Shown here: piece by piece, positions 1-63,262 of the stretch | Layout of the letters: each line of letters starts with the position of its first letter | How positions within the stretch are numbered: the first letter of the stretch is position 1 | Origin: Cephalotus follicularis | Taxonomy: Eukaryota; Streptophyta; Magnoliopsida; Oxalidales; Cephalotaceae | Assembly (NCBI GenBank): GCA_001972305.1 | Contig: BDDD01001471.1 | Span: 38,277 to 102,276, forward strand | Length of the DNA stretch: 64,000 bases | Direction of reading: 5' to 3' | The notes under the pieces: model-generated | Seen by the model: the letters and a program-made list of their open reading frames with translations, nothing else | Database searches by the model: none | Told to the model about the DNA's origin: nothing | Position numbers and translations under genes: made by a program

Positions 1-580
1 CGACATATATATATTTGTCAAAACATATATATAACACTTCATTTCCCAAGTAAATTATGATTCATAAAATACATGCAACAATACATTTCTCTTTGAACAT
101 TTCAAGTAATTTATAGGTATAAATACTTGAAACATATATATTTGTCAAAATATATATAACAATCATTTTCTCCAAAACTCAAGTATCAAAATACTTGTAA
201 CGGTACACTTTAGTAAAACCCGATTATTTGAACTACATTCAAATACCTCAAAAATACATATTTGTAAATCAGTTTCGCAATCTCTCGAAAGCCATTTTCT
301 AAATCCTTTTTGGAACCATTTTCCAAACACTAATGATTTTAATAAACCATTAACCAAACACATTTCAGAATGTTTTGGAAGCCATTTTCACAATCTTTCG
401 AGAATATATATATATATATCTCAAAACGTACATTTCACATAAAGTAATGATTTATGTAAATCACATTTGCACTTCCAAAAAGGGGTAAAACGTTTCACAA
501 TCCTCAATAACCAACTCGAAATACGATTTAACACAGTACAATATGCATACATATACTCACAATGCAAAACGGTCCCAAAC

Positions 581-1067
581 AGTTGGTCGTTTCTCACTGA
601 CAGTCGGCTGTTCTCCTTCAACAGTCGGCTATCCCACAATTGGCAGTCGGCTGCTCTTAACCACCAGTCGGCTGCCCTCCTTGGCAGTCGGCCGTCCTAT
701 ACTAACAGTCGGCTGCCCTCCTTGGCAATCAGCTGTCCCTCACATAGCAGTCGGCTGCCCTCTCCAGGCAGTCGGCTGGTCCAATACAATACACATTCCA
801 TGCTGCCACCTGTCCCAGCATGTCCGGGAGAGTGACACGTGGACAGTCAGCTGTTACCCAAAACAGTAGGATGCACCACCACACTGTCGGCTGCCTTCCT
901 TGGCAGCTGGCTACAAAATCAAAAGGAAGCAACCTGCATCACCAGGCGCGAACAGTCGACTGGATCCAATGCCCAGTCGGCTGGTTTCCATGGGTAGTCG
1001 GATGTTCCTCACGAACAGTCGACTGCTGGCCTAGAACAGTCGACTGTCCTCCCAGGACAGTCGACTG
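581..1067. repeat. Phased palindrome array, CAGTCGGCTG flavour (large cluster, LTR A left copy)
   Basis: About 20 copies of a 10-bp near-palindrome, CAGTCGGCTG or CAGTCGACTG. Unit starts are at 581, 601, 622, 644, 665, 685, 706, 726, 748, 769, then 844, 864, 884, 904, then 954, 974, 995, 1016, 1037, 1058. Steps within each block are 20-22 bp. The DNA between units is not conserved, so this is not a simple tandem repeat. Some units have lost the central CG (caatcagctg, cagtcagctg), as expected from methyl-C deamination. Confidence 0.92.
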
Positions 1068-1583
1068 CCCCTACGGGCAGTGCCCAAAAACAGCAGCAAT
1101 CACACAAGTTTCAATCCACTTTAAACAATTCAAAGCCATAAACACTATCACCATAACACACATTCAGGCTTCTATCACAATATAACACATGCACTTCACT
1201 CATAACATCATTATAAATGACTTTGAATCACAAATATAGGTTTCCCCTACCTTTGAACCCCAAGTTAGGAGTTGCAATCCACCTCTTTAAGTCCCGGATC
1301 CGAGGTCCTTGCACTCCTAAGCTCGCCCAGCAGCCTCCATTGGTTCGATTCCTCCGCTGGTCCGGCCTCCAAGCTTCCGGTTCAACACCAAGCTCCGTAT
1401 GTCCTCAACACACACACACACACACTTTCACTCTCAAACTCACCTTCAAACACCCTTGAATCACAGAGGAGATGGAGATTGAGGAGAGGAAGTTGTGTTT
1501 TTATCAAGGAGACCCGGCCCCTCTCTCTGCCAAATGCCCACAAATGCCAAAACACCCCCTTTTTCTCACTTAAAGGCTGACAG

Positions 1584-1737
1584 CACGTGGCTGACTGGTA
1601 CATGGCAGTCGACTGCCATGGATTGGCAGTCGACTGTTTCTGACGACACTCAAAACAGACGGCTGCTTCCTCACAGCAGCTGGCTGCCACCTTCACCAGG
1701 GGAGTCCAGTCGGCTGCCTCTCTATGGCAGTCGGCTG
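1584..1737. repeat. Phased palindrome array, small cluster near the LTR A start
   Basis: Units at about 1584, 1605, 1627, 1656, 1677, 1707 and 1728, mostly cagtcgactg or cagtcggctg. Steps are 21, 22, 29, 21, 30, 21. This cluster lies on the other side of the leader-like segment (about 1100-1580) from the large array. A (CA)n tract lies at about 1410-1424 between the two. Confidence 0.88.
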
Positions 1738-1883
1738 CCCCCTGCACCAAAAACACACTAACACACTTTTCCTTGCAAATTTTACCACACCAAAGGGGGA
1801 AAACACAATCATCATTAATTCCACGTATAAAATTACATTTAAAAATGCAATATTACACCTTAACGAAAAACCCGAGCATTAGA

Positions 1884-2172: not shown

Positions 2173-3114
2173 TCACATGATGCCCTTGCTGGTGTCCCTT
2201 CGCTGCAAAGGCCCAGTTGCAGCGCCACTTCCGCCAGTAGGTCCCACGGTTACTACCATAGAAATCTCTGGACAATCCCTCACCAAGTGACCAGATGCTC
2301 CACACTTCATACACAACCCTTTCTTTACCCGACAATCCTTCACTTGATGACCGGTGCGACCGCAGTGGGAACAAACCCCAGGCCTTACATTACTCCCCTG
2401 ACTAGGAGTTCCTTGGTTGGCAGTCTGCTGAGACTGGTTCTCAGATGATCTGGGCGGAGAATCACTGCCTTGCCATTGTGATGACGCTAGCCTGAACTGA
2501 GTAGGGCCCTGTTTGCTCTGCTGCCTACGATCCCTTTCCGCACGGTCTTCGTTTGAGATACTCTCTAACAACCTTGCCTTCTGAGCGACGTCCACAAAAG
2601 TCCCCAGTTCGATAGCCCTGATCCTTGACCGAAGATCCGACCGCAGACCTTTCAAAAACCTCCGTATCTTTTTACCATCATCAGCTACCAGATAGGGGGA
2701 ATGCCTGGCTCGCTCCATAAACCTTGCTGTATACTCTACCACAGTCATCTCTCCTTGACGTAGCACCAGGAGCTCTGACTCCCTTCGTTCTTGCTCAAGT
2801 CGAGGCACATAAGCATCGAGGAACTCCCTCCGGAACCCCTCCCAAGTACAACCGAGTCCAGTTGACTCCCACTTTGCCTTGACCATCTCCCACAAGTGGA
2901 TGGCCTCGCCCCATAAACGGTAGACAGCAAACTTTAGTTTCTGGTTATCTGTACAGTTCATCACATCAAAGATCTTTTCCAGATCCTGCAACCACCTCTC
3001 AGCAGTGGTAGCATCCAACTCTCCTCTGAAGCTCGGTGGACTCTGCCTCATGAACCTTTCAAGGTCCCTCCCAAACTTATTACCGTCGTCACATGCACCC
3101 TGAGCTGGAGCCAT
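2173..3114 (-). CDS. gag: Gag of gag-only Ty3/gypsy element (TR-GAG type), intact
   Basis: A 313-residue uninterrupted frame from an ATG at 3114. Residues about 35-165 match the retrotransposon Gag domain (AERWLQDLEKIFDV, then WEGFRREFLDAYVPRLEQ, then EYTARFMERAR and FLKGLRSDLRSRI). Two CCHC zinc knuckles follow: C248-C251-H256-C261 and C268-C271-H276-C281. Gag packages the element RNA into virus-like particles in the cytoplasm, and the knuckles bind nucleic acid. The same frame runs 25 codons further upstream to 3189 inside the truncated LTR. I chose the MAPAQG start because it lies at the junction where LTR homology ends. This is the only long unbroken retroelement frame in the window. Polymerase functions would have to come from an autonomous relative. 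Confidence 0.9.
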   Translation of the reverse strand: MAPAQGACDDGNKFGRDLERFMRQSPPSFRGELDATTAERWLQDLEKIFDVMNCTDNQKLKFAVYRLWGEAIHLWEMVKAKWESTGLGCTWEGFRREFLDAYVPRLEQERRESELLVLRQGEMTVVEYTARFMERARHSPYLVADDGKKIRRFLKGLRSDLRSRIRAIELGTFVDVAQKARLLESISNEDRAERDRRQQSKQGPTQFRLASSQWQGSDSPPRSSENQSQQTANQGTPSQGSNVRPGVCSHCGRTGHQVKDCRVKKGLCMKCGASGHLVRDCPEISMVVTVGPTGGSGAATGPLQRRDTSKGIM

Positions 3115-3227
3115 GTGCACTTCCAAAAAGGGGTAAAACGTTTCACAATTTTCAATAACCAACTCGAAATACGATTTAACACAGTACAATATGCATACAT
3201 ATGCTCACAATGCAAAACGGTCCCAAA

Positions 3228-3715
3228 CAGTCGGTCGTTTCTCACTGACAGTCGGTTGTTCTCCTTCAACAGTCGGCTATCCCACACTTGGCAGTCGGCT
3301 GCCCTTAACCACCAGTCGGCTGCCCTCCTTGGCAGTCGGCCGTCCCATACTAACAGTTGGCTGCCCTCCTTGGCAGTCGGCTGTCCCTGACATAGCAGTC
3401 GGCTACCCTCTCCAGGCAGTCGGCTGGTCCAATACAATACACATTCCTTGTAGCCATCTGTCCCAGCATGTCCGGGAGAGTGACACGTGGACAGTCGGCT
3501 GTTACCAAAGACTGTCGGCTGCACCACCACATAGTCGGCTGCCTTCCTTGGCAGCCGGCTACACAATCAACAGGAAGCAACCTGCATCACCAGGCGCGAA
3601 CAGTCGACTGGCTCCAATGCCCCGTCGGCTGGTTTCAATGGGTAGTCGGCTGTTCCTCACGAACAGTCGACTGCTGGCCTCGGACCGTAGGCTATCCTCC
3701 TTGGACAGTCGACTG
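3228..3715. repeat. Phased palindrome array, CAGTCGGCTG flavour (large cluster, LTR A right copy)
   Basis: Copy of the array in the left LTR. The first units are at 3228, 3249, 3270 and 3292 (21, 21, 22 bp) and the last is at about 3706. Individual units differ from the left copy by transitions (for example cagtcggttg for cagtcggctg), but positions are unchanged. Confidence 0.92.
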
Positions 3716-4230
3716 CCCCTACGGGCAGTGCCCAAAAACAGCAGCAATCACACAAGTTTCAATCCACTTTAAACCATTCAAAGCCACAAACACTATCACC
3801 ACAACACACATTCAGGCTTCTATCACAATATAACACATGCACTTCACCCATAACATCATTATAAATGACTTTGAATCACAAATATAACTTTCCCCTACCT
3901 TAGAACCCCAAGTTAGGAGTTGCAATCCACCTCTTTGAGTCCCGGATTCGAGGTCCTTGCACTCCTAAGCTCGCCCAGAAGCCTCCATTGGTCCGATTCC
4001 TCCACTGGTCCGACCTCCAAGCTTCCGGTTCAACACCAAGCTCTGTATGTCCTCAGCACACACACACACACTTTCACTCTCAAACTCACCTTCAAACACC
4101 CTTGAATCACAGAGGAGATGGAGATTGAGGAGAGGAAGTTGTGTTTTTATCAAGGAGACCCAGCCCCTCTCTCTGCCAAATGCCCACAAATGCCAAAACA
4201 CCCCCTTTTTCTCACTTAAAGGCTGACAGC

Positions 4231-4383
4231 ACGTGGCTATCTGGCGCATGGCAGTCGGCTGCCATGGCTTGGCAGTCGGCTGTTTCTGCCGACACTCAAA
4301 ATAGCCGGATGCTTCCTCACAGCAGCTGGCTGCCACCTTCACCAGGGGAGTCCAGTCGGCTGCCTCTTTGTGGCAGTCGACTG
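4231..4383. repeat. Phased palindrome array, small cluster, LTR A right copy
   Basis: Counterpart of 1584-1737. Units at 4252 and at 4374 (cagtcgactg) bracket a few others. The cluster lies about 150 bp inside the LTR start. Confidence 0.88.
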
Positions 4384-4529
4384 CCCCCTGCACCAAAAGC
4401 ACACTAACACACTTTTCCTTGCAACTTTTACCACACCAAAGGGGAAAAACACAATCCTCATTAATTCCACGTATAAAATTACATTTAAAAAAGCAATATT
4501 ACACCTTAACGAAAAACCCGGGCGTTACA

Positions 4530-6275: not shown

Positions 6276-9210
6276 TGTAATATCCCGCATATTCATGTGC
6301 ATATTTTCGAGTTTTTATTTTGTGTTGGTTATATTGTTGGTCTATTTTGTTTTTGAGCCCTTATGTTTTGGGATATATGATATCATTTTTGGGCTTTTGA
6401 TATTTATTGGAAGATGATAATGGATAAGTAAAATTAATTGTTTGATATTTTAAATTAATCTCTAAATCAGTTTTTATATTAGTAATATGGTAAAATTGTT
6501 TTATTTGGAAAATAAATCCGTTTTTCTATTTAAAACCTATTTATTTCATATTTCTCCCCTCCCTCTCCCGTATGTTTCATCTTCTTTCTTCCCAAACCGA
6601 TTCTTTTCCTCTATTTCTCCCTATCAATCCCGAACTTTTCTACCTTTTTCCTATCCTATCAGATTTAGAATTCTTCTTTCCTTATCTAAGCTGATTTTCG
6701 CCTCTTCCTTGTTGTATATGTATGCCATTATTTATTGTTTATGCATCCACAATGTCATTGTGCCTGGTAGCCAAACCTGCAGAGTTTTGGAATCTATTTT
6801 GTTCTCCTTTGCTTCATTGAATCAGGTTTGTTTTCCTTTGTGCATCACGGTTTAACTTATCGATGGTTATCTTGTGTTGTTATGATTTTGTTTGTATACA
6901 TAAACTGTTAGAATTCAATTTTGATTCCTGCCATGCATATTCTGTTATTGTTTGTGAGATTGTTAGCAAGTCCTAAAGTGTCTTGTAGTAGTAGTAAACA
7001 AATTGTGAAACTAGCAATTGGTATATCACAGAAATTGATCAATAGCTGTGCGTACAATGAATTAGAATTTTGATCCTCTTCAAAGTATGATCACCAATCG
7101 CATAAAATTATTGTTTCTTTATGATCATAAGTAACTGTTGTCTCACATAAGTCCTATTTAAATGTTTATGACCCCCTGGTATTGAGAAATCCAAGTTTTG
7201 ACAGAAAATTTGCATAAGACTGCTATGTTTTTTTTTAAAAAAACCAAAAAAAAAAGAAATTTTCTATGAACAGACAGCTGCTGCACTTTGAGTAGTCGGC
7301 TACCTCTTCAATCAATCGACTGTTATCCCATGCACAGTCGACTGGACCGCTGTACCAGTCGACTGGCTACTGTTCTGCTTGTGTAGTCGGCTAGCCATGT
7401 GATACAGTCGACAGCCATGTCTCAAATAGTCAACTGGATTTTGTTACAGTCGGCTGGAGGTGTCCAGGAAATTTCTGGTTTTAAGTTTAGTTATTCATTT
7501 GTTCATCTAATGAATCAGAATATGTTTTAGAAACTGTTAAATTTCTGTTTTGATATTCGGAAGTAGTTTTTGAATCCTTATGTGAATGATATTGTATCAT
7601 TTATATTTTTGTGCTACGAGGGGCAATTAGAAATTGTTGTTCAATTCTTAAGTGATTTTTTTAATCGCTTAAGGTACGGATTATTCGTTCTTGGCTTATT
7701 CCTTCAGTATTAATGAAATGAATTCAAAAATATTTTGTACGGATATTTCTCATCTTTGACATCGGATTTATTTGAAATAAATCCAGTTTTTTGAATATGC
7801 CTCTTTCGGTTTACGAAATTTGTTATGTTTGGATTTGAAAATAAAGTCACTTGATATTGTATGAAATAAATATTTATAACTTTACAATTGGTTATGATAT
7901 GTTTATGAAAGGTTATGCAATAGTCTATATGTTTTGAAAATAAATAAGTTGATTCTGATTTATGAAAGTAAACTGATTTTGATATTGAAAAAGACTTTCA
8001 CATTAGGAAGTATGTTAAAGACTATGATATGTTCAGAAAATGTTTAGAAGATCTGTTATGTTTTTAAAATTGTTTTGGAATAAAAAAATATTTTGGAATA
8101 AGGATATACAGAGATATTTACTACCTATGGAGGTACCATAGGCATGTCGTAGGCCTGGCACAGGGACATGACACTTCTGTAGCGGTGTCATTTGACTACG
8201 ACGTCTCTCTATGTTATGAATAAATCCCATGAGGTGGATTTATGGATCCATTATGTATGATAGATGCGTATGGGTTGATCTTAGGATATGTTAAGGATTT
8301 GGATATTGGGGATTGATTGTGTAGTGCCGTACACGTCTTTCAATCAGATCATGTGGGCCTTGCAAACCCCTTGCAATTATTCATATGTGTATGAAATTTT
8401 GGATCTCTGTGATGAAATTATGGAATCAGATAAATCTCTGTTTTGTTTATGTTTTGGAATCTTTAACTCGGATAATGTTAAAGAAATTGGATATTGTTTC
8501 GGATAATGTTTTGAAATTTAGATTTGGCTTTGAAACTTGGATTATGCTTTGAAATTTGACTATTGTTTTAAAAATCAGATTTTGCCTTCGGATATCGATG
8601 TGAAAAGTTGATAATGATTGAAATGCGAATATTTTTTTTGAATAGACATAATTGTTTATATGACTACTTCCTTTTTGCTTTTCGAAATAACGTTAAATTA
8701 TTTTATTCATGAGATTTTGATATTTAAAGGTTCAAGTATGTTCTATCCTTGAAAGTATCGTTTTATGTATTATGATTATATATCTGTACTGAGGTTTGCT
8801 CAGCCGCCTTTTCGTTTTCCATGCGACAGGTATTCTGGGAAAGTATATGGGAAACGTGTGATGAGTGATGACACCATGTCTGAGGATCATCTAGGAGTGT
8901 AATCCTACTATGTTTCTCTTAGGATTAGTTTATGAACAATAAGTACCTTTTTGGATTATTATTTCAGTATTTGACTTAAGGAATATGTTTAAGAATTTTG
9001 ACTTATGTTTAATCTTTCAGATTATGAATAAAGTTTCAGACTATGTTTTAGACTTTGTTATATCCATGATATGTTTAGACCAACACGTTTGAATAAAGTT
9101 AAGAAAATATTATGGATAAAAAGGAATAAAATCGAGCTTTGTTATCTGATGTGTTATGTTTAGCTTCGGATTCTGAACCGTAACGACTCCCGCAGTTCGG
9201 GGGTGTTACA
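6276..9210 (+). mobile_element. 5' LTR of gag-only gypsy element B
   Basis: 2,935 bp, beginning TGTAATATCCCGC and ending GGGGGTGTTACA, so the ends form an inverted repeat. It matches 10660-15976 once the rearrangement there is removed. It contains a 7271-7456 palindrome array, an ATCAG|GTTTGT donor-like site at 6825/6826 and a TTAAG|GTACGG site near 7672. An A/T homopolymer block at 7230-7257 replaces the sequence around the first array unit seen in the 3' LTR. Confidence 0.88.
7271..7456. repeat. Phased palindrome array, CAGTCGACTG flavour (LTR B 5')
   Basis: Units at 7271, 7293, 7313, 7335, 7356, 7384, 7405, 7427 and 7447; steps 22, 20, 22, 21, 28, 21, 22, 20. They include perfect palindromes CAGTCGACTG (7335, 7356) and variants tagtcggcta, caatcgactg and tagtcaactg. 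Confidence 0.92.
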
Positions 9211-10659: not shown

Positions 10660-12979
10660 TGTAATGCCCCGCTTATTCATGTGCATATTTTCGGGTTTTT
10701 ATTTTATTTTGGTTATATTGTCGGTCTATTTTGTTTTAGGGCCCTTATGTTTTGGGCTATATGATATCATATTTGGGCTTTTGATATTTATTGGAATATG
10801 ATAATTGATAAGTAACATTAATTGTTTGGTATTTTAAATTAATTTTTAAATCAGATTTTATATTAGTAATATGGTAAAATTGTTTTATTTGGAAAATAAA
10901 TCCTTTATGCTATTTAAAACCTATTTATTTCCTATTTCTCCCCTCCCTCTCCCGTACGTTTCTTCTTCTTTCTTCCCAAACCGATTCTTTTCCTCTCTTT
11001 CTCCCTATCAATCCTGAAATTTTCTGCATTTTTCCTATCTTATCTGATTTCAAATTCTTCTTTCCTTATGTAAGTCGATTTTTGCATCTTCCTTGTTGTA
11101 TATGTATGCCATTATTCATTTTTACTGCCTCCACTGTGTCATTGTGCCTGGTAGCCGAACCTGCAGAGTTTTGGAATCTGTTTTATTCTCCTTTGCTTCA
11201 TTGGATCAGGTTTGTTTTCCTTTGTGCATCATGGTTTAAGTTATGGATGGTTATCCTGTTCTGTTATGATTTTGTTTGTATACATAAACTGTTTGAATTC
11301 AATTTTGATTCCTGCCATGCATATTCTGTTATTGTTTGTGAGATTGTTAGCAAGTCCTGAAGTGTCTTGTAATGGTAGTAAACTGATTGTGAAACTAGCA
11401 ATTGGTATATGACAGAAATTGATCAATAGCTATGCGTACAATGAATTAGAATTTTGCACATGTTCAAAGTATGATCACCAACTGCGTAAAATTCTTGTTT
11501 CTTTATGATCATAAGTAACTGTTGTGTCACATAAGTCCTATTTAAATGTTTATGACCCCCTGGTATTGAGAAATCCAAGTTTTGACAGAAACTTTGCATA
11601 AGACTGCTATGTTTTTGTTTTCTGACGGCCATCACAGTCGGCTGTTTTCTATGAACAATCGGATGCTTTGCTTTGTGTAGTCAGCTGCCTATTCAATCAG
11701 TCGACTGCTATCCCATGCACAGTCTACTGGACCCCTGTACCAGTCAACTGGCTTCTGTTCTGCTTGTGTAGTCGGTTGGCCATGTGATACAGTCTACTGC
11801 CATTTCTCAAACAATCGGCTGGATGTGTCTAGGAAATTTCTGGTTTTAAGTTTCGTTATTCGTTTATTATTCTAATGAATCGGAATCGGTTTTAGACACT
11901 GTTAAATTTCTGTTTTAATATTCAGAAGTAGTTTTTGAATCCTTATGTGTATGATATTGTATCTTTTAGTTTTTTGTGTTGCGGGGGGCAATTAGAAATT
12001 GTTGATCAATTCTTAAGTGATTTATGTGATCGCTTAAGGTACGTATTCTTCGTTCTTGGCTTATTCCTTTAGTTTTACTGAAATAAATTCCAATATGTTT
12101 TGTATGGATATTTCACATCTTGGACATCTGATTTATTTGAAATAAATCCAGTTTTGTGAATATGCCTCTTTCGGTCTACGAAATCTGTTATGTTTGGATT
12201 TTGAAAATAAAGTCACTGGATATTGTATGAGATAAATATTTATGACTTTACAATTGGTTATGATATATTTACGAAAGATTATGCAATAGTCTATTTGTTT
12301 TGAAAATAAATAAGCTGATTCCGATTTATGAAAGTACACCGATTTTGATTTTTAACATGACTTTCACATTAGGAAGTATGTTAAAGACTATGATATGTTC
12401 AGAAAATGTTTAGAAGATCTTTATGTTTTTACAAATGTTTGGGAATAAAATAATATTTTGGAATAAGGATATACAGAGATATTTCCTACCTATGAAGGTA
12501 CCATAGGCATGTCGTAGGCCTGGCACAGGGACATGACACTTTCGTAGCGGTGTGATTTGACTACGGCGTCTCTCTATGTTATGAATAAATCTCATGAGGT
12601 GGACTTATGGATCCGTTATGTATGATAGAGGCGTATGGGTTGATCCTAGGATATGTTAAGGATTCGGATATTGGAGATTGATTGTGTAGTGCCGTACACG
12701 TCTTTCTGTCGGAGCATGTGGGCCTTGCAAACCCCTTGCAATTATTCATATGTGTATGAAATTTTTGATCTCTGTAATGAGATTATGGAATCGGATAAAT
12801 CACTATTTTGTTTATGTTTTGGAATCTTTAACTCGGATAATGTTAAAGAAATTGGATATTGTTTCGCATACTGTTTTAAAATTTAGATTTGGCTTTGAAA
12901 CTTTGATTATGCTTTGAAATTTGAATGTTGTTTTAAAAATCAGATTTTGCCTTCGGATATCGATTTGAAAAGTTGATAA
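10660..12979 (+). mobile_element. 3' LTR of element B, first part
   Basis: Starts TGTAATGCCCCGC and follows the 5' LTR colinearly to 12979, where it breaks into foreign LTR H. The segment 11425-12979 is present again at 13865-15417. Confidence 0.88.
11636..11825. repeat. Phased palindrome array (LTR B 3', copy 1)
   Basis: Same positions as the 5' LTR array, with units such as cagtcggctg, caatcggatg, tagtcagctg and cagtctactg. An extra unit (cagtcggctg near 11636) is retained where the 5' LTR has an A/T homopolymer. Confidence 0.88.
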
Positions 12980-13864: not shown

Positions 13865-15417
13865 AATAGCTATGCGTACAATGAATTAGAATTTTGCACA
13901 TGTTCAAAGTATGATCACCAATTGCGTAAAATTCTTGTATCTTTATGATCATAAGTAACTGTTGTGTCACATAAGTCCTATTTAAATGTTTATGACCCTC
14001 TGGTATTGAGAAATCCAAGTTTTGACAGAAACTTTGCATAAGACTGCTATGTTTTTGTTTTCTGACGCCCATCAGTCGACTGTTTTCTATGGACAATCGG
14101 ATGCTTTGCTTTGTGTAGTCGGCTGCCTATTCAATCATTCGACTGCTATCCCATGCACAGTCTACTGGACCCCTGTACCGGTCAACTGGCTGTTGTTCTG
14201 CTTGTGTAGTCGGTTGGCCATGTGATACAGTCTACTGCCATTTCTCAAACAATCGGATGGATGTGTCTAGGAAATTTCTGGTTTTAAGTTTCATTATTCG
14301 TTTATTATTCTAATGAATTGGAATCGGTTTTAGACACTGTTAAATTTTTGTTTTAATATTCAGAAGTAGTTTTTGAATCCTTATGTGTATGATATTGTAT
14401 CTTTTAGTTTTTTGTGCTGCGGGGGGCAATTAGAAATTGTTGATCAATTCTTAAGTCATTCATGTGATCGCTTAAGGTACGTATTCTTCGTTCTTGGCTT
14501 ATTCCTTCAGTTTTACTGAAATAAATTCCAATATGTTTTGTATGGATATTTCACATCTTGGACATCTGATTTATTTGAAATAAATCAAGTTTTATGAATA
14601 TGCCTCTTTCGGTCTACGAAATCTGTTATGTTTGGATTTTGAAAATAAAGTCACTGGATATTGTATGAGATAAATATTTATGACTTTGCAATTGGTTATG
14701 ATATATTTACGAAAGATTATGCAATAGTCTATTTGTTTTGAAAATAAATAAGCTGATTCCGATTTATGAAATTACACCGATTTTGATTTTTAACATGACT
14801 TTCACATTAGGAAGTATGTTAAAGACTATGATATGTTCAGAAAATGTTTAGAAGATCTTTATGTTTTTACAAATGTTTGGGAATAAAATAATATTTTGGA
14901 ATAAGGATATACAGAGATATTTCCTACCTATGGAGGTACCATAGGCATGTCGTAGGCCTGGCACAGGGACATGACACTTTCGTAGCGGTGTGATTTGACT
15001 ACGGCGTCTCTCTATGTTATGAATAAATCTCATGAGGTGGACTTATGGATCCGTTATGTATGATAGAGGCGTATGGGTAGATCCTAGGATATGTTAAGGA
15101 TTCGGATATTGGAGATTGATTGTGTAGTGCCGTACACGTCTTTCTGTCGGAGCATGTGGGCCTTGCAAACCCCTTGCAATTATTCATATGTGTATGAAAT
15201 TTTTGATCTCTGTAATGAGATTATGGAATCGGATAAATCACTATTTTGTTTATGTTTTGGAATCTTTAACTCGGATAATGTTAAAGAAATTGGATATTGT
15301 TTCGCATACTGTTTTAAAATTTAGATTTGGCTTTGAAACTTTGATTATGCTTTGAAATTTGAATGTTGTTTTAAAAATCAGATTTTGCCTTCGGATATCG
15401 ATTTGAAAAGTTGATAA
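13865..15417 (+). repeat. Second copy of LTR B segment 11425-12979
   Basis: 1,553 bp, about 97-98% identical by eye to 11425-12979. Both copies are clearly closer to each other than to the matching part of the 5' LTR. It begins immediately after the intact end of H (ccttaca|aatagc). Confidence 0.88.
14073..14265. repeat. Phased palindrome array (LTR B 3', copy 2)
   Basis: Duplicate of the 11636-11825 array, including cagtcgactg at the start, caatcggatg, tagtcggctg and cagtctactg. Confidence 0.88.
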
Positions 15418-34575: not shown

Positions 34576-34872
34576 TCTAAGCGTCGACGCTCACTTCCAT
34601 AGCTTTAGCGCTTTGTCCAGTAATCTAAGTGTCAACAACTATCTTTGGCGTCGACGCTTCAAGATAAGGATCCTTGAGCATCGGAGCTTATCACTTTGGC
34701 ATCGAAGCTTTGAGGTAGAACCTCAGGCGTCAAAATCCACGTACTCATTTGTATGCATATTCGAAAAAGGCGTTGACGCTATCTCTAAGCGTCGACATTT
34801 ATCGTCAATCCAGTACATGTTCTTCGCATAACAGGTCAAAACGTTGATGCTTCCATCGTAAGTGTCGACGGT
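34576..34872. repeat. Phased palindrome array, AAGCGTCGACGCTT flavour (LTR G, distal)
   Basis: Core starts 34583, 34631, 34650, 34680, 34701, 34729, 34772, 34791, 34843, 34864; steps include 19, 30, 21, 28, 19, 21. The 19-30-21-28 pattern is the same as in LTRs D and D2. Confidence 0.9.
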
Positions 34873-35639
34873 TACACAGTCCAGAACATCATCTTCCTTG
34901 TTTTAACACCATACCAGGGAAATTCAATCAATAGAACATGCGATCCAGGTTAATATTCACTCAATTAGAACATCCACAAAAGGTCAAGTACTCACAGTAT
35001 GCATGGCATCAATCATTCAATCCACAGTCCACAAAAACCATGCAATCATCAATGATCAATCACTATTTTTGAATTCAAAATTGTATGTACAAGTCCCCTA
35101 CCTTTGGTTCCAAGTTAGGAATCTGAAAGTCGACATCTTTAAGTCTGTAACAACGACATTTTGAGCTCCCCAGTAGTTCCAACCAGGTCCAATAGCTCCA
35201 AACTGAGTTCCCAAGCTTCTCTCTTGGTTCAACAATGGAGGAATGGCTCCTCCCTCTCTCTCTTTCCTCAATGTTTTCTTCTAACTCTCTCTGTTTTCTT
35301 TTCTTTTCTCAGCTCATGGGTGAGAGGAATGAGGAAGGAAGTTTTATGCTAGTTCCTTCCCTGTCCTTTTTCCCAAACTCGTTTTGCATGGTGCCATATG
35401 CCATTCTCTCTCTCTCCCAACAGTTTCATGCACACACATCAATTCTCCCTCTTTCATTTGTTGCATGCACACATATGTGTCACTCCCACTCTCCCATCTC
35501 AGTCACTGAAGAATCAAGAGTTGTGGTGCATGCCCAACACATTTCATTTGACATGTGATGGCGCCTACAAGGTGACCTTCTCCTGCATTCATCACGTTCT
35601 CCAGATAGCATTTTAGATGTGTCTGATATTCGCCATTAA

Positions 35640-35795
35640 GCGTCGCTAGTTATCTCGTCGGCGCCGAAGCTTAACTCAGCGCATGCATTGGCCTCGACGC
35701 TTATCTCTAGCATCAACGCTTTGAACACTTACATTTAAGCGCGTGTTGCATTCCTTTGGGCGTTGACGTTTACCTCTAGGCGTCGACGCTTTTGC
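35640..35795. repeat. Palindrome doublets (LTR G, proximal)
   Basis: Pairs of cores at 35642/35662, 35693/35712 and 35762/35782, each 19-20 bp apart. Confidence 0.85.
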
Positions 35796-36469: not shown

Positions 36470-37766
36470 TTTATTGCAACCTAGATAAGGAAACATAAAG
36501 TTGAGTCAGCATTTATTCCAATTTTTAATATATGACTACCATAACACTTGGTCTTTAGTGTTTATGGTTCCCCCACTATTCTAATCGTATCCCATACCCC
36601 CATATGGAACTCGAGAAGTCCAACTTCCTAGTGGGGATTGGAATCCATCACAATCATATTATGGCCTCAGCTAGGGCATGACAAACCATAATATATACAA
36701 TGGGTAGGCTATCTTGCCAATTTGCCTCCAATACAAGATCCAATCATAAAATTTGGCCTTAGATTCAATATGTCCTCAACTAGGGCATGACAAGCCATTA
36801 GAATCACGGTAAGTCAAACACCCACAATTTGCATTGGAATGCACTACTTTTAACACCAACGCATAGGCGTGTCCAAGTGCTAAAACATAGCCACCCATTG
36901 CGGTGCCCAACGCCGACGTTGACATAGTGTCCCACAGGTTACCAGCCTCAGCTTGGGCATGACAAACTAATAACCCAGGTACACCACTCAACGAAATTTG
37001 TGGAAGGCCACGGGGAACCACTCCATGGGTTCCTACGTTCACACTTATTATTTAATTGAGGGAATTTACGGTCTCAAATTTTAATTACCAAGCCTTTAAT
37101 TAATTCATTGGATTCATTAAACACTTCAAATTAATTACGGCTTTGCATGCATGACATGTATTTGGACTATCCATCTTATGCACCTTGGACTTATTTCTAA
37201 AATAAATCAATGGAATGGCAAGGACATCACTAAAAGTAATGACTTGAGCCCAAAGTCATTTCTCTGTCTTACTAGGTGCTATGATTTAAAACTATCTATT
37301 ACAATCATTACCAAGCATACATGGCCTTCAATGGTCTTGTACTTCGCTTTTCATCTCATCCATCTCTCCTTGCACAGTCTTCATTTACAAAAAGTGCTTT
37401 ACATTTCAAAAATGAAAATTACATAAAACATATCAAGGAAAATTTACATAAGAGGAAAAAAATGGTGCACGCAGGCACCTTATTACAGACCATTGAATAA
37501 GAGATAAAATTAATCACCCACAAAAGAAAACCAAAGCTAGCTCTTGTCCTTATAGGCCATCCATTGTACATAAGAGTATTAAAGTACATATCTAATATTA
37601 CTTCAAAACAATACACAAAAGCCTCTCATAATAACCAATTAAAATTTTAATATCAGAGGTTGTTTATAGGTCAAACTCCAACTAAATCAATCAATGATTA
37701 ATTGTCCTTTAAGTGCCTCAATGCAAAAATTCCAAATTTAAGCAACATAACAATTTATTGTTTTAG
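36470..37766 (-). other. Non-coding leader of copia F
   Basis: Aligns in blocks with the leader of E (29560-30720). No reading frame of note. Confidence 0.6.
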
Positions 37767-38047
37767 GCATCGATGCTTTCAATAGGCGACGACGCTTAAC
37801 ACCTAAGCGTTGAAAGTTTTCCACAAACCGTCAACACTGTAAACTTCTTTCAGCGCACAGGTAATCATCGACGCTTATGAAAGGTGTCCACGCCTTAACC
37901 TTTAGCGTCAACACTTTAACCAAGACATTGACGCCTAGTGCCTAAGCGTCGATAGTTCACCACAAACCGTCGATGCTTAACACAGTTTTAGCGCTAAAAT
38001 TCAAGTCACCTAGATAAGCATCGACACTTTAACCAAAAGCGTTGACG
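37767..38047. repeat. Phased palindrome array in the copia F leader
   Basis: Cores at 37769, 37788, 37809, 37830, 37867, 37886, 37907, 37927, 37948, 37969, 38020 and 38041; steps 19, 21, 21, 37, 19, 21, 20, 21, 21, 51, 21. Arms are of the AAGC...GCTT kind. The array lies about 300-575 bp from the primer-binding site of a Ty1/copia element. Confidence 0.9.
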
Positions 38048-38343
38048 ATTAAACCTACTGTTTGTCGACAACATGTCACAAAACAACAGTTTTCAGTGTT
38101 TGGATTTTGGCATTCCAACTTTTGCAATCCAAACTGCACTTTGCAGGTTCTAAACATGAATTCCAAACATATCAAAACCAGTTTATGAATTAAATCAAAT
38201 TTTACATTTAAAAACTTAAGAACATAAAGAAAAAAATTAAGGGGCTTATAGGATGAGTTTAACCATAAAAACATAACAACATATTAAAACTTCAATTTGT
38301 CATTATACTAGGCATAATAATTCAACTATGTATGTTGTGGTTG

Positions 38344-38356: not shown

Positions 38357-40566
38357 TGTAGGGAATGGTATGACATCCCCAGAGCTGAATCCGGACCAAA
38401 GGGTGTTAGAATGTCAAACAAAAAAAAATTCTAACAATTATGCAGCGGAAGAATGAACATTTAACTCCAGCAAACAGGTCCAATACAGCAAAACAGGTCA
38501 AAAGGGATCACCACAACATAATCATAATAGAATTGACATCACTTAAGCATGCATAAGTGATACAAAAACATGGAAAGTTAGAGAGAGAGACAAGGAGATC
38601 ATACCACACGGTGATTGCTACTTCGTCTTTGCCGCTTCAAGCTTGAGTAGATTCCCTCTGAAAATTTGAGATCCTCCAAGTCTCCAAGCTCTAAAACCAC
38701 CAACAACAAGTATCCTTAAAAACAGACTCTGTTTAAGTTCATTCTCTCTCACACACAATGCTTACAAAGAGAATATTGAATTCACAAGTGTTGTCAATAG
38801 CAATCCACCCTAGGTTAGCTTCAAACTTGGTGCAGTAATCAGTGAAGGCATATCACTCTAAGTGTGCAGAAAACTCGCCCAATAGTCTATTGCATCACTC
38901 TCATAGTGTTCAGGTTCCAAAACCAATTTTATTGCCAGCCAAGTTTCTCTCTCTCTTTCTTTGTTCCCACTACCCCACTCTTGCACACATATTCGATCAT
39001 CGCGCTACCTCTAAGGAAGCATGTATCCATGATCCAAAGTGCTCCTTTCCACTTTCTAAGACGTGGAAATCGCTGGAGTGAGAGGGAGAGAGAAAAAAAA
39101 AAGTGCGCCTATGATGTGTCCGTGTAGGGAACCCAGGTTACCGCTCTAAGTGTTGACCCTTCTAAAAAGCATTGGCACTCAGACAAGTTAAGCGTTGACG
39201 CCTTACCAAAAGGAATTGACTCTTAGACGGGGTTTAAGAGTCGACGCTTTTCCAAAAGGCGTTGACGCTTAGAAGGCTGGACAAACATTTTGAGTCTAAC
39301 TTTTATACAAATGAGTCCAACTCATTTTAATGATGACACATATCCCTTCGATTATTAATCAAGTAAGATCAAGCAAATGTTTTTCCACAAATTACAAAAT
39401 CCACATAACCGATATTTGATTTTATAAAATTTCACCAAGACTTAATACGTGTAACATATTTATGAACTAATCATTATCGGCCAGGGACCCTATAAAATCT
39501 CGGTTATAATCGGTGATGTTCATAAATTACTGAAATGCCCCTAGAATTCGGTTAAGCCATTTTAAATAGTCCCAGACCTATTTAAATTCTACTGGAATAA
39601 TAACCAATATTATCCAGATGAGAAAAATTAATCTAATTAATTTTCCCATTATTTATTACACATCGCCGTAACACAAGACTTTCTAAGTTATCGGTTCGCC
39701 TGTGCTATAATCCCTTGTCATACTTGGATTCGATTGAGGTCTAGGGTAAGGATATGTGTCAACCCTAGATAATACCTCAATGCCTAAAATATCTGATCAT
39801 CAATAGGACCTTTGATAGATTCTCTGGAAATCTTATTTCCTGTCCACCTCAACCTTGGCCAAGGTTTTCATAAGTCCACCGTACAGTCAGACGATAATAT
39901 AGCCGATCACCTTCTCTCAGGTGTGACAATTCCATATTGCGCACTCGCTTACATTCATATAGATTCAATCATATACAAAGAACACCTGATTGTCTGTCCT
40001 GCACAAGAGCTGGGTAAGGTGGAGATCAAAGTATAACCGTTTCCATACAATATAGAGCAGTCGCTAAGGTCTAAGGATCAGACAAGATCAAAAACTCGCT
40101 AAGTGACTAGCACTTATACAAAACCGCAACAAGTAGGAGTCACTACTGGTCCAGTTCAGTGTACATGCTCCCAGCGTGCACCCCGTATTTGCCCTAGTAT
40201 TCCAACACAGATGGTAGTGAGAGAATCCATCCACCAATTCCAAAAGCAGGCAACATACATGCAAGTCTATCCGGTTCACTAATTCCCACAGAGTGAACAT
40301 ATGACTTGGAACTAATTCGACATAAGGAATAAGGTAGCCAATCTCACAGCCTCCATGCTTGGCATCCAACCTTATGTTAGGGCATCACAAGCGTAAGCAG
40401 ATCTATAATAACTACTTCGATTATATGATAAAACACAAGTGATATTGCCGTATAAAATTATAAACAAAGTTGCACGTGTCATATATCTGGAATAAGATTG
40501 TTTATATACATAGATAGATGCAATATGAAAACCCATCCAATGGCTTGTCGGGTCATCCTATCTAAC
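38357..40566 (-). mobile_element. 5' LTR of copia F
   Basis: About 2.2 kb, TGTAGGGAATGG to CATCCTATCTAAC on the plus strand. The part 39480-40400 aligns with the E LTR (24890-25700), confirming copia kinship. It contains a palindrome array at 39150-39275. The right end abuts copia 2 Gag directly. Confidence 0.78.
39150..39275. repeat. Phased palindrome array in a copia LTR (element F)
   Basis: Cores at 39152, 39171, 39194, 39215, 39240 and 39261; steps 19, 23, 21, 25, 21. Units include agcgttgacgcc, gagtcgacgctt and gcgttgacgctt. Confidence 0.87.
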
Positions 40567-43024: not shown

Positions 43025-43039
43025 TATATACATATATAT

Positions 43040-43086: not shown

Positions 43087-43785
43087 AATCACAGTATAGG
43101 TGTGACCCGTTAAGGCTACATCAACATAATCCAGTAATCATGTCCTAAAAGGGACCAGTCAAAACATACAGCGTACGAGATCGTCGCCATCTCCGGGCCC
43201 CAACGTCTCACACTCCATACTTCAGCCCCAGCTCCGGACGGCTCGAAGCAGGTCAACAGTATAGGTTACTAGCACGGTGGCTAAGTAATAAATAGTGGGT
43301 ATCCCTAGCCATCTATTGGTAACTAGAGCCAAACCCTACGACTAGACAACCTTGGAAACCTCCACCACGCAGCTAGTACGGCCACAGTCACTGTCACTGT
43401 CCAATTTAAGCAATTTTATAAAATAATTACTTGATGAAATATATTTGTCAAAATATATTTCAGTCCATTCTTAGGTCATTTAAAAGTTATAAACACTTGA
43501 ATCAATACATTTTCATTGTGTAGAAAATCCTTTAAACAGTTCATAAACATTGGAAACTACATTCCCCTATCATTCAAAAATATGCATTTTAGTACAAAAT
43601 AATGATTTATTCAAAATCATGCATGTATTTATAAAATGATAATACTTTTAGAAATCAGTCACATTTCAAGCCACAATTCAATTAACAGTTCAATATGCAA
43701 TTCAAACATATGGTCAAATGCATATAGGCTTGAATCGGGGTCAACACATGTCAATTAAGCGAAAGTGTCCAAACAAGAAGCTTAA

Positions 43786-44122
43786 GAGTCGACAATTAAC
43801 CTATAGGAATAGACGCTTATGTTCTTTAAGCATCGACGCTCAACCCTATAGCGTTAGCGTTTTACAGTAACAATCTTTGCGTTAACAATAGTCTTTAGCA
43901 TCGACGCTTCAAGGTAAGGAACCTTGAGCGTCGACGCTTAATCCTTTGGTGTCGACGTTTTGAGGTAGGACCTTAGGAGTCAACGTTCAAGTGTCCATTC
44001 CTTACGCATAATCGCACAGGGCGTCCACACTTTCTCTAACCGTCGACGTTTTCCATCGAACCAGTACGTGTTCTTAATATAACAGGTAAAGCGTCGACTC
44101 TTCCCTTGTAAGCGTCGAAGGT
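43786..44122. repeat. Phased palindrome array, AAGCGTCGACGCTT flavour (LTR D2, distal)
   Basis: Cores at 43788, 43809, 43832, 43853, 43881, 43900, 43930, 43951, 43979, 44023, 44042, 44093 and 44114. Steps 21, 23, 21, 28, 19, 30, 21, 28, 44, 19, 51, 21. Confidence 0.92.
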
Positions 44123-44911
44123 TATACAGTCCATATTTCATCTTTTTCGTTACAACACCAAAACAGTAGGTTTCAATCCAAACATACATGCAATCCAGTT
44201 TGATATACATCCAGAAAATAACATGCGTGATAAGTTTACATATCAGATGTATCACAGCGTCAATCCAGTCAATGTAATCAATCCAAAATAGTCATGTAAT
44301 ACATGCATTTCACCAATGGCCATTTAATATAATTAGACTCAAACATTGCATGTATAAATCCCCTAACTTTGGTTTCGAGTTAGGAATCCGAAAGTCCACC
44401 TCTTTTAGTCCTCTGTCCAGTCACTTCGAGATCCCTGCTTCGGCCTGTACCTCTAAGCAAGCTTGTTTCCCTTCCTGGTTTGAGCTCCCAAGCTTGCCCA
44501 GGTCCAATAATAGAGATTTTATCCTCTCTCTCTATCTCTTTCTTTTCTCCCACCATTTCTCGCTATTTCTCTCATGTTTTCTTTTTCTGTTTTCTCAGCT
44601 GAAGGGTGAAAGAAAGAGTGACGTTTTATGCAGGTGACATTTTTTTTTCCTTTGCATGAATGGGCATAAGTCTCTTTCTTCCTTCACACATAGTTGCATG
44701 GCGCACCAGGTGTCTCCCTCTTCCTTAAGCTGCTACATGCATGCCCACATGTCCTCTCATTTCTTTCCTTTTAAGTCCTTACAAGTCAAGGAATCTTGGT
44801 GCATGGTCAACACGTCTTCTTGACTTGTGAAGGAGCCTGAATAATGGCCTTAACATGTACCCATGCACCACGTCTCTGTCAGTGCTTAAACGTGTCTGAT
44901 ATTCGACACAA

Positions 44912-45065
44912 AGCATCGACGCTTCTCTATAACTGTTAGTGCTTATAGCGGTTTGTTCTATTGGCATCGATGCTTATCTCTTGCGTCAACGTTTTAAACG
45001 TTCCACTTAAATGCGCATTTCAGCTGTCATGGCGTCGACGCTTTAGCCTATGGCGTCAACACTTT
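44912..45065. repeat. Palindrome doublets (LTR D2, proximal)
   Basis: Pairs of cores at 44915/44935, 44966/44985 and 45034/45055, each 19-21 bp apart. Same layout as LTR G. Confidence 0.88.
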
Positions 45066-50830: not shown

Positions 50831-51143
50831 CTTTCCAAGTAATTCATAAGTTATAAAATACTTGAAATAATACATTTATTCAAAATGTAAACAGTCTTCG
50901 AAATCACGTTTCCATCCTTCGAAAATATACATTTTCATGTAAAGTAATGATTTGTTATAAAATCATGTATGCACTTCTAAAATGATAAAACACTTTAGAA
51001 TTCAATCACATTTCAATTCACAATTCAGTTCACAGTTCAATTCATACCTACATCGACGCTAACCGGCACAAGGCAAGGAAAGCTCGACCAATCCACAATA
51101 ATATGCAAGCAAACATATGCTCAAAATGCAACCCGACCCTTCG

Positions 51144-51494
51144 GCGTCGACACCTAACCTCTAGGCGCCAAATCGTTCATATTAGTCGCTTAACCCTAGG
51201 CGTCAACACTTATACCCTTTAAGCGTCAGCGCTTAACCAGTAACCCGAGTGTCAACAATTGCCCTTGACGTCGACCCTTCAAGGCAAGGATCCTTGAGCG
51301 TCAGCAGTCATTACTTTGGCGTCGATGCTTTGAGGTAGGACCTCAAGCGTCAACATCCATGTGTCCATCACTACGCATATTCAAACTAGGGCGTCAACGC
51401 TTTCTTTAAGCGTCGACATTTATCGCGAAGTCAGTGTACATTCCTACGCGTAACAGTCCTTAGCGTCGACACTTATCGTTTAAGCATCGACGGT
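51144..51494. repeat. Phased palindrome array, GCGTCGACGCTT flavour (LTR D)
   Basis: Cores at 51146, 51167, 51185, 51202, 51225, 51251, 51270, 51300, 51321 and 51349, and later 51465 and 51486. The 19-30-21-28 run (51251 to 51349) matches LTR G and D2. Confidence 0.9.
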
Positions 51495-52039
51495 TAGAGA
51501 AGATCAGAAACACCTTCTTCTCCAACACGTTCAATACCAAGGGATCAACATGCATAATCACACATGCAATTCGATCCACAATCATTTCAATCACAATATG
51601 CAAGGCAGGTAATCTACTCATAGCAACCTAACACAAATCACACCATTCACACACCAAGGGAAAATCATCCCAAAACGTGCATGCAATTCAATCCATAAAG
51701 TTCATGCATTTCATCAATGATAAACACAATTCTTGAACTCAAATGTGCAAGTATAAATCCCCTACTATCACCTACCTCTGATTCCGAGTTAGGAATCGCA
51801 GTATCAACAGCACAGTCGAGCCGTAGGTTCAATTGCCGAACCTCTCCAATAACCGCTGAACCGAAGCCGGTTCTTGCTAATTTATCCTTTCCACTGCCAA
51901 ATCCAATTGCCGCACACACTGCACATACAACACATTTCACTACGATCAACACACGCAAAACATTGTCGTCGCCGAAACGTCGACCAAATTCCGGCCGACT
52001 CACCTAGATTACGAAACACCCATCAACGGGTTCCACATT

Positions 52040-58337: not shown

Positions 58338-60220
58338 TGTAATACCCTGCTTGTTCGTATGTGTTTTTACGGATTTTTATGTAAGTTTCGGACTTTTTAA
58401 ATTTTGTTGATTTTAAAAGTCCGGTTGCCCTTTGTTTTGGGCTTATGTGATTTGGGCTGACTGATACCAGTCCGAATTTTGGATATGTTATGCTATGTTG
58501 GGTTTGGAGTTTTTATTTTATTTAATCAAAATTTTATTTTAATAAAACAATTCATTTCTATTTTATAAATCCTTTTAATTCATTTTATTTATTTTAATTA
58601 AATTTTCCTTCTTTTCTTCCTTTTTTCCTTTTTCTTTCTTATTTTCTTCTTCTTTCCTATTCTTCTCCCTCCTTCACCCGAACTCTCTCCTCCCCTCTTT
58701 ACTTCCACATGGCAAAAATCCATTCTTTCCATTCTCGTTCCCTAGAAATCCTCCTTTCTTCCCTTTTGGGCAGATTTGTCTACCTTTTTCCTTTTTGTGA
58801 GTGCCATTGTCATTCTATATTTGCCTTCTTCTTTTTGTGCTATGTGCCACTGCCGACAACTACTTGTGGAGTCTGTGTAATCTGCTGTGTAATCGTTTCC
58901 TTAAGTTTGAAGAGGTAATCTCAATCCTTTGGTTATTCTTTGGGTTGAATTCTTCTAGTTTGTTAAGCATGTATGTACTTCTTGTTTTGTTTTCATGTCC
59001 TCCTTCTGTGTACAGCTGATTAACCAATAAAATTGTGGTGTTCTTGATGTGTTTTCGTGTTCTTGGTACTCATTACAGGTTAGTAATCTTACTATAATGA
59101 TTCGTTTCTCTAGTCTTTGGTTTTTGTTGTTGGCATTCTTGGTATTTTTCTAAGTTTTGATCTCCTGTATAATTATATGTTCTGTCATGGTATTAGTAGG
59201 TTGTCAGCATGTTTTGTATACCATGACTTGTCACAAACTGGTTTTATAACATTTGTAATTGATAATGGGCAGAATCAGGACATATATGTATGCATGTTTT
59301 CTTACTTTCTCTTAAAGATAAGTCACTGTCCAGATAATTCTATGTCAATCATGTGTTTCTATGTCACCTAAATGTCAGATATGATCATATAATTATGTCC
59401 TTGTGTCTCTGGTTTAACGTGGTACTCGTTTGAATCAATTTCGGTATTGAATTGTCTAGTTTCCTACTGTTCTGTCATCCAGAACAATCGGCTGTTCCTG
59501 TGGACAGTCGGATGGATTGGATGAGCAGTTGACTACCATATGAACACAGTCGACTGTCTTGGGTTGAGTAGTCGACTGGATCTATGAACTAGTCAACTGT
59601 CTGCATGCTGGTTTGAGTAGTCGAATGGCCCTTGTGATTAGTCGACTGCCAAACTTCCCCAGTCAACTGGTGCTCTGTAATAGTCGACTGTTTTGCCCAG
59701 AAATGTACTGTTTACAACTGTTTTGATCTGTTTGTTCCTCGAATCGATCCGGGTCTTTTCTAAACAATGTTATGAGTCTGTTTAAAATTTCTGATGTATC
59801 TTAGACTCTTATACGTATGGCTTTGGTGTCTTTAGATTGTTGTGCCTCAAGTGGAGTTTGTTGAATCACCTATCCGTAAGTGCATTATAAACACATAAGG
59901 TACGGATACTTCGTTCCTTGATACACTCTTATGATTTTATCAAGTAAAATTAGTTTTGCTTTATGCTATGCATCTTCATTTATGAAATTGATAATGTTTT
60001 ACGGTTTTGACACGTTTCGAAAATAAAGTTTGTTTTACATTATAAATGATTTCGATTTTATACATATGATATGAAATGATACGATATGTTATGGAATGTA
60101 TGTTATGATACCATTGTGAGCGGTTTCCGAATATGTTATGTGAAAACATATTTTATGTGGTTTTAAAATTTATTTCGATAAATCAATGTTTTGTTTTATG
60201 TTTTGGGTGCCTTTTCGTAG
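58338..60220 (+). mobile_element. Truncated 5' LTR of gypsy element J
   Basis: Starts TGTAATACCCTGC and follows LTR B up to the AAG|GTACGG site near 59903 and the next 300 bp. It then passes directly into gag at 60221 without an LTR end (GGTGTTACA) or primer-binding site. About 1.2-1.5 kb present in LTR B is missing. A donor-like AGAG|GTAATC lies at 58914/58915. Confidence 0.8.
59485..59690. repeat. Phased palindrome array, CAGTCGACTG flavour (LTR J)
   Basis: Ten units at 59485, 59505, 59526, 59547, 59569, 59590, 59618, 59639, 59660 and 59681; steps 20, 21, 21, 22, 21, 28, 21, 21, 21. Regular array with several perfect palindromes. Confidence 0.95.
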
Positions 60221-62374: not shown

Positions 62375-62577
62375 TGTAACGCCCGAGATTTTTACACAAT
62401 TTGATATTTCAATTTTATTGAAATACTATCATTGAATTCATGGGAATGGCATAATTTTGACCTAGGTGATGCTTTCCAAAAACCTAAGGGTTAGATTTTG
62501 GAAGAGGGAATGATTGGGATAATAAAGAAATTCTAACTGATGCAATTAGGGGCAAAACGATACAGTTTTGGGCTAAA

Positions 62578-62728
62578 AGCGTCGATGTCTTTGTAAAGAC
62601 GTCGACGCGTATGGGAACAAGGGGGCGCACGTAAATGCATAAACATGCACGTCGATGCAGGCGAAGGCATCGACGCCCTTGTACAAAAGAGGAAAAGACA
62701 TTGACGTCTAAAGAAGACGTCGATGTCT
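62578..62728. repeat. Palindrome doublets, AGACGTCGATGTCT flavour (LTR K, proximal)
   Basis: Core pairs at 62581/62601, 62651/62669 and 62700/62719, that is 20, 18 and 19 bp apart. Units agcgtcgatgtct, agacgtcgacgcg, gcacgtcgatgc, gcatcgacgcc. Confidence 0.87.
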
Positions 62729-63250: not shown

Positions 63251-63262
63251 CAGAGGTAGGGG
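63251..63262 (+). promoter_or_regulatory. Candidate 5' splice site in LTR K leader
   Basis: CAGAG|GTAGGG, in a block (ctaacttgaaaccagaggta) conserved in LTRs A, D2 and G on their own sense strands. Confidence 0.4.

Follow-up and report, generated by a model that had tools for sequence, protein, structure and literature searches.

The LTRs of Sireviruses (Ty1/copia) carry repeated motifs (RMs) that are palindromic, numerous, clustered before the TATA box and CpG-rich (Bousios 2010, PMC2829016). The RM of the Vitis Sirevirus is CGGTCGACCG, with a GTCGAC core, and the portion of that account drawn on here describes RMs as specific to Sireviruses and missing from classic copia elements, and states no rule for their spacing (PMC2829016). 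For Ty3 elements, the corresponding portion of a maize survey reports that, as a rule, they have no structure peak of the kind found in copia LTRs (PMC10760457). The preliminary description of the DNA analysed here knew of no described plant system of this design, which is too strong a statement given the palindromic motif clusters of Sirevirus LTRs (PMC2829016). A search of the open-licence literature gave no other description of palindromes arrayed at 21 bp.

VANDALs are DNA transposons that encode VANC, and CRT/DRE elements are known as sites in the promoters of stress genes. The targets of VANC are reported, in the sections concerned, to be arrays of motifs in tandem repeats of noncoding TE regions, introns included (PMC5735166, PMC10398659). 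PLACE entries, as quoted, give GTCGAC as CRTDREHVCBF2 (barley CBF2) and RYCGAC as CBFHV (PMC9138379), and a DREB1D site has been reported to be associated with plant LTRs (PMC11656987).

The window, that is, the whole stretch of 64,000 nucleotides of Cephalotus follicularis DNA that was analysed, contains a Ty3/gypsy-type element, element A, with the following parts:

464..1882, minus strand: LTR A copy 1, the 3' LTR of the element (94.4% self-match to 3112-4529)
580..1067, minus strand: LTR A array block 1, 20 class I units in blocks of 10, 4 and 6
1606..1737, minus strand: LTR A array block 2, 6 class I units
2173..3114, minus strand: gag ORF of element A (Retrotrans_gag E 6.9e-16, Ty3_capsid 5.9e-8, zinc knuckles)
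3112..4529, minus strand: LTR A copy 2, with two array blocks as in copy 1 (3228-3715 and 4252-4383)

The 5' end of LTR A copy 1 was set by alignment with TGTAACGCCCGGG of copy 2, and the limit at 464 is perhaps short of, or beyond, the true end of the LTR. A PPT-like GGAGGGGTGG is found at about 1885-1894, just upstream (in the sense direction) of copy 1. Named gag relatives are from Cephalotus and Artemisia. The gag ATG of element A adjoins the end of the LTR match (window 3112-3116). An iMet primer-binding site was searched for between LTR A copy 2 and gag and was not found, and this arrangement resembles the fixation of a deletion or of a spliced leader. No target-site duplication of element A was seen on inspection by eye.

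Class I units are near CAGTCGACTG, class II units are AAGCGTCGACGCTT, and a third type is AGACATCGACGTCT. The units of LTR A block 1 follow one another at steps of 21, 21, 22, 21, 20, 21, 20, 22 and 21 bp, then, after a gap of 75 bp, at 20, 20 and 20 bp and, after a further 49 bp, at 21, 21, 21, 21 and 21 bp. The blocks of ten, four and six units described previously are thus confirmed, with 17 of the 17 in-block steps at 20-22 bp. In block 2 the steps are, in plus-strand order, 21, 29, 21, 30 and 21 bp. The units had been called ten-base palindromes, which is correct for the consensus of the 26 units of copy 1, which is symmetric, and not for most individual units, which are off by at least one base: only four of the 20 units of block 1 are exact palindromes (953, 1016, 1037 and 1058), seven are CAGTCGGCTG, one base off, and the remainder deviate further or elsewhere. 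The core in LTR A is often GTCGGC, the class cores being GTCGAC. A dyad-symmetric unit in at least eight copies per LTR, as in the Sirevirus RM, is present in LTR A copy 1. In the sense direction, block 2 lies at 150-272 bp from the start of the LTR, before a TATA-like box (GATAAAAAC) at 378, and block 1 lies after this box, at 820-1277 bp and slightly further.

These arrays are like the Sirevirus RMs in their palindromic units, present in at least eight copies and clustered in the LTR, and the Vitis RM has the same GTCGAC core. They differ in their hosts, given that Sireviruses are Ty1/copia whereas LTR A flanks a Ty3-type gag and the element of LTR J (below) has gag, RVP_2 and RVT_1. They also differ in having no CGG-CCG core (a signature that the Sirevirus Tnd-1 is also reported to lack; PMC2829016), in the second block placed after the TATA-like box, and in the dominance of one step. 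By this comparison the Sirevirus LTR palindromes are the closest known kind, and the arrays are a Ty3/gypsy counterpart of them with one dominant step; what is new here is the Ty3/gypsy hosts, the dominant step, the unit types that differ between related LTRs, and the abundance. With the VANDAL21/VANC arrays of Arabidopsis they share a dense short motif in noncoding TE DNA, growth by tandem duplication and variation between related TEs, but the VANDAL motif YAGTATTAY is not palindromic, and a Pfam scan of 26 ORF pieces, from elements that are truncated here, showed nothing like a VANC gene. The likeness to the CRT/DRE (CBF/DREB) element lies in the core, RYCGAC being present in both the class I and the class II consensus; neither the extended flanks nor a 21-bp array is known as part of CRT/DRE.

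Similar arrays are present in other elements of the window:

7271..7456, plus strand: class I array of LTR B1, 9 units, steps of 20-22 bp and one of 28 bp
11635..11821, plus strand: class I array of LTR B2 (LTR 5' end 10660)
14073..14259, plus strand: class I array B3, a 98% duplicate of the B2 region
34579..34873, minus strand: class II array block 1 of LTR G (G34; LTR 5' end 35952)
35638..35791, minus strand: class II array block 2 of LTR G, followed in the sense direction by a TATA-like CATAAAAC
37765..38050, minus strand: class II array in the leader of copia F, 12 units between PBS and copia gag
39148..39270, minus strand: class II units in the LTR of copia F, an LTR inferred from the PBS position
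43784..44123, minus strand: class II array block 1 of LTR D (D43; LTR 5' end 45224)
44911..45064, minus strand: class II array block 2 of LTR D
51142..51495, minus strand: class II array of LTR D2 (LTR 5' end 52942)
59485..59690, plus strand: class I array of LTR J (LTR 5' end 58338)
62577..64000, plus strand: class II/III-like units in two blocks, in an LTR starting at 62375, with forms between AAGCGTCGACGCTT and AGACATCGACGTCT

Window 11425-12979 and 13865-15417 are 98% identical copies of the B LTR region. The J element has gag, protease (RVP_2) and RT (RVT_1) pieces from 60632 onward, and LTRs G, D and D2 are probably Ty3/gypsy, as judged by LTR homology to A only. The assignment of F to copia rests on its gag (35951-36340; PF14223, E 1.3e-11); its PBS, tRNA-iMet-like with up to two mismatches allowed, is at 38355. 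Copia pol-like sequence at 40577-42023 seems to resume at 47225-48577, and 42024-47224 looks like a nested insertion that includes LTR D.

The step of LTR A had also been claimed for LTRs B, J, D, D2 and G and for copia F. It is seen in the long runs of sites in B, J and the copia F leader, whereas G, D and D2 contain mostly pairs of sites 19-21 bp apart, at about 30, 50 or 70 bp from pair to pair. The two-block placement is common to LTRs A, G and D, which have a backbone in common: block 2 comes before the TATA-like box, its end lying about 100 bp from it in A and about 290 bp in G and D, and block 1 comes after the box. LTRs A and D have roughly the first 124 bp of the LTR and an internal segment of 115 bp in common (70% identity) and differ in unit type, whereas the class I unit is common to A and B/J, and the sole match found between A and J lies inside the array. 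The unit type is therefore not tied to the LTR backbone. The third unit, often asymmetric, occurs at loci L016, L022 and L029 as well as at window 62577-64000, and L016 has the two-block layout too, at 180 and 1387 bp from an LTR-like end. Between the LTR start and block 1, LTRs A, G, D and D2 have in common a segment like CCTAACTYGGAACCAAAGGTAGGGG (1269, 3917, 35119, 44384 and 51793, minus strand), which is splice-donor-like, with AGGTAG in four of the five, so that block 1 may be intronic.

The arrays are real and abundant and are no artefact. Scanning the window with a symmetric weight matrix that had been trained on the sites of the window itself yielded 82 class I and 92 class II sites; neighbour gaps of 20-22 bp number 52 in class I and 26 in class II, the latter with 10 more of 19 bp. 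No gap of 20-22 bp arose in 20 dinucleotide shuffles of the window. A genome sample outside the window consisted of 200 kb chosen by coordinate (188.6 kb readable), with preset positions on contigs already known from array-similarity matches. Here, gaps of 19-22 bp made up 45 of the 64 class I gaps of up to 110 bp, 43 of the 83 class II gaps and 19 of the 45 gaps between exact GTCGAC cores, the last against none in the shuffle, and one shuffle per stretch left no gap of up to 110 bp. The sample has 83 GTCGAC core sites (13 in one shuffle), and arrays occupy about 2.2% of its readable bases (4,178/188,586). When the 64 six-base palindromes were compared over window and sample, GTCGAC came out on top, with 26 pairs at lags of 19-22 bp where 2.2 were expected; GACGTC had 6 against 1.1.

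The test of genome-wide distances against shuffled sequence that the preliminary description had proposed was run on this sample and on genome-wide pair counts, and the step is seen in both. Genome-wide, exact CAGTCGACTG pairs 10-40 bp apart (0-30 bases between) number 48,687, against 166 in a reversed control, and 37,144 of them are at 20-22 bp (132 in the control); class II pairs number 4,236, against 7. Among the matches listed, 69 class I plus-strand pairs, all of one contig, have steps of 19 (3), 20 (12), 21 (40), 22 (2), 27 (4) and 28 bp (8), and a hand tally of the 50 class II pairs listed gives 37 at 20-22, 4 at 19 and 9 at 23-40 bp. When the entire window was searched de novo for palindromes recurring at fixed lags, AT repeats drowned out any signal. 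Scans of viral contigs found no class I pairs and no relatives of the J gag; four class II pairs, in arrays of 2-3 units on contigs of 57-68% GC, were judged to be chance.

The step might be history only, a founder of about 21 bp having been duplicated in tandem, also as 41-bp dimers, with the units surviving because they bind something and the spacing not selected. As a full account we regard this as rather unlikely, but in part it is at work. Tandem Repeats Finder gives LTR A a period of 41 bp (4.5 copies, 75% matches), and the spacers of LTR A are alike (z 5.6 and 2.9 for copy 1 and 6.8 for copy 2), which indicates that part of the array was built by duplication. The G at position 7 of the A1 units (16 of the 22 counted) is on the plus strand throughout, and one A copy (L011, matching window 1602-1622) is missing precisely one unit with its spacer (21 bp) from block 2. 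The 26 distinct spacers of the 21-bp step among the genome matches listed are also more alike than shuffles (z 10), so descent contributes to the step. On the other hand, the spacers of B and J are mutually unlike (z 0.5, 0.9 and 1.2) and 20-22 bp is kept nonetheless, and gaps of about 30, 51 and 72 bp recur in several LTR families, which a 21-bp unit alone does not predict. Traces of simple tandem duplication, which had been named as a possible refutation, are seen in the A array and not in the spacers of B and J, and the claim that the bases between units are not conserved stands for B and J and not for A. The value for copia F (z 4.7) is inflated, given that its spacers include outer unit bases. 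The spacers of the 27-28-bp class I step (10 of 12 compared, among the matches listed; z 14.6) have a common word like TGATGCGTGTTGTG, possibly a second site. The arrays are partly explained by duplication, and their function is putative.

The constraint on units and spacers was followed in 22 copies of LTR A, two in the window and 20 elsewhere. The copies were picked by array similarity (40 scored of 2,308 candidates), which biases them against array indels; ranks 9-28 were used for the rates, where this bias is lessened and still present. Units have 0.0128 transversions per column, against 0.0280 for spacers and 0.0340 for flanks, the units being below the spacers (p 0.0012) and the spacers not distinguishable from the flanks (p 0.153). 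Transitions are about equally common in units and spacers (0.038 and 0.037; flanks 0.050), as is expected of CpG-type decay. Distinct indels number 1 over 260 unit columns, 9 over 217 spacer columns and 64 over 904 flank columns, and 399 of 418 steps are identical to the window copy. Substitution and indel rates together indicate that the units are protected and the spacers drift. In LTR A, then, the units are constrained and the spacers are not; the short time covered gives no proof that spacer length is constrained, the spacer indels being not significantly rarer than those of the flanks (p 0.13), as unselected spacing would also have it. Between the two window copies, identity is 90% in units, 94% in spacers and 96% in flanks, and the unit changes may represent decay of methylatable sites after insertion. 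Between B and J, units are 72-76% identical, spacers 45-50% and flanks 53-55%. For the class II LTRs, identities of spacers and units are 71 and 71% (G-D), 72 and 79% (G-D2) and 68 and 76% (D-D2), with flanks at 58-63%; the spacers are nearly as conserved as the units, and the notion of free spacers fails there.

Gaps other than about 21 bp cluster at 28-31, 49-53 and 70-73 bp. In the window there are 25 off-step gaps, after a reduction by hand that counts each once per LTR lineage. They have R 0.31 at 10.5 bp, for which p is 0.12 when the phase is left free, cosine p values of 0.053 (10.5 bp) and 0.013 (10.2 bp), and R 0.594 at 21.0 bp (p 5e-5, or 0.018 with periods of 18-24 bp scanned). Outside the window, the 50 off-step gaps of 22 arrays have a mean cosine of 0.244 at 10.5 bp (p 0.0018) and of 0.361 at 10.2 bp (0/10,000), p-values that are optimistic because the arrays are not all independent families. 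The single best period is about 21 bp and not 10.5 bp, in the window and outside alike; outside, gaps near 30, 51 and 72 bp fall between the multiples of this best period. Off-step gaps outside the window thus favour whole helical turns. The common 27-28-bp class I step (12 of the 69 pairs among the matches listed) is off-phase at 10.5 bp, and the order of steps in the window has no register-restoring tendency (p 0.33), which is in line with a step left by duplication. The earlier proposal that a protein reads the sites on one face of the helix remains the best reading, with the whole-turn gaps outside the window and the unit constraint in A in its favour; the weak phase in the window, the best period of about 21 bp, the off-phase 27-28-bp step and the lack of register restoring speak against parts of it.

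That the array works as RNA, with palindromes of the leader pairing together and seeding small RNAs or genome dimerisation, is in our judgement very improbable. Of ten stretches folded, all but B2 and G34 do contain array windows below -40 kcal/mol per 110 nt, the eight including the antisense strand of A, and block 1 lies downstream of the TATA-like box. Clusters of Sirevirus palindromes in maize are reported, in the part of the survey concerned, to attract small RNAs (PMC10760457). Across the 22 copies of A, shuffles are exceeded by the number of Watson-Crick pairs inside units (2,196 of 2,855; 2,171.5 +- 4.9 in shuffles), by that of double changes (24 versus 10.5) and by that of double changes giving Watson-Crick pairs (12 versus 4.9, p 0.004), but these shuffles ignore the relatedness of the copies, and the Watson-Crick share of double changes (12/24) is the same as the shuffled one (4.9/10.5), so that the compensatory signal is not specific. 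The commonest A variant gives, by hand assessment, a C-A mismatch in sense RNA and a G-U pair in antisense RNA, and B and J are oriented opposite to the A variant, so no strand is favoured for RNA. Block 2, moreover, is upstream of the TATA-like box. The 21-nt siRNA register offered earlier as an alternative is unlikely, because the steps range over 19-22 bp and include 27-28 bp.

We likewise give little likelihood, by analogy with VANC and the VANDAL repeats, to the arrays being targets of a co-evolving anti-silencing protein encoded by the elements. Such a protein would explain why unit types differ in related LTRs (A against G and D), as in A and D, which share LTR ends and an internal segment, and VANC targets are themselves reported to be motif arrays in noncoding TE regions (PMC5735166, PMC10398659). 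CpG o/e is 1.28-1.60 in class II arrays, whereas the remainder of LTRs G34 and D43 has 0.27 and 0.56, and the commonest class II core changes are G>A and C>T at CpG, as in methylated DNA, to judge from their type; class I arrays, at 0.45-0.67, are near the rest of their LTRs (0.56-0.66). Against this, no extra DNA-binding domain was found with Pfam in the 26 ORF pieces of these truncated elements, and the occurrence of one unit class in both gypsy-type and copia elements fits a shared host factor better.

From the sites, their positions, their step and the unit constraint of LTR A, we infer, with about even confidence, that the arrays are a platform for a protein that binds double-stranded DNA and serves transcriptional activation or protection from silencing. 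The arrays would offer many near-palindromic sites with a GTCGAC core to a sequence-specific protein, with block 2 upstream of the TATA-like box and block 1 in the presumably transcribed leader. With sites at about whole helical turns (about 21, 30, 51 and 72 bp), bound proteins could sit side by side on one face and, acting together, might raise transcription of the element or keep it open against methylation. Given that GTCGAC and RYCGAC are listed CBF cores, the most economical candidate for the binder would be a host AP2/ERF factor of the DREB-CBF type, a lead and not a result. The class II units in both the G, D and D2 LTRs and the copia leader are as a shared factor predicts, but conserved flanks reaching 10-14 bp, beyond the 6-base CBF core, count against CBF. 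In the window, at least one strand retains RYCGAC in 32 of the 53 class I units and in 28 of the 58 class II units, a retention not above that expected from unlinked halves, and half-sites show no coupling of their decay, which leaves the dimer of the preliminary description without support. Units selected for having at most one mismatch do not count in this comparison, as the selection makes their values invalid.

A further idea, bolder and in our view doubtful, is that of a genome-wide address code, in which helically phased arrays with one GTCGAC core would be common to many LTRs of Ty3/gypsy type and to one or more Ty1/copia elements. In related LTRs the flanks of the units (AG..CT, GC..GC, AC..GT) would have changed together, the core and step being kept, with each dialect following its own cognate DNA-binding or anti-silencing protein.

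If the arrays are indeed protein platforms, a large share of the Ty3/gypsy elements of this plant would be controlled by one site grammar, palindromic LTR arrays would extend past the copia Sireviruses, and the role of helical spacing in plant promoters could be tested on arrays that occur in nature. The arrays could scatter tens of thousands of sites like those of stress factors, and this may sequester the factor or rewire genes.
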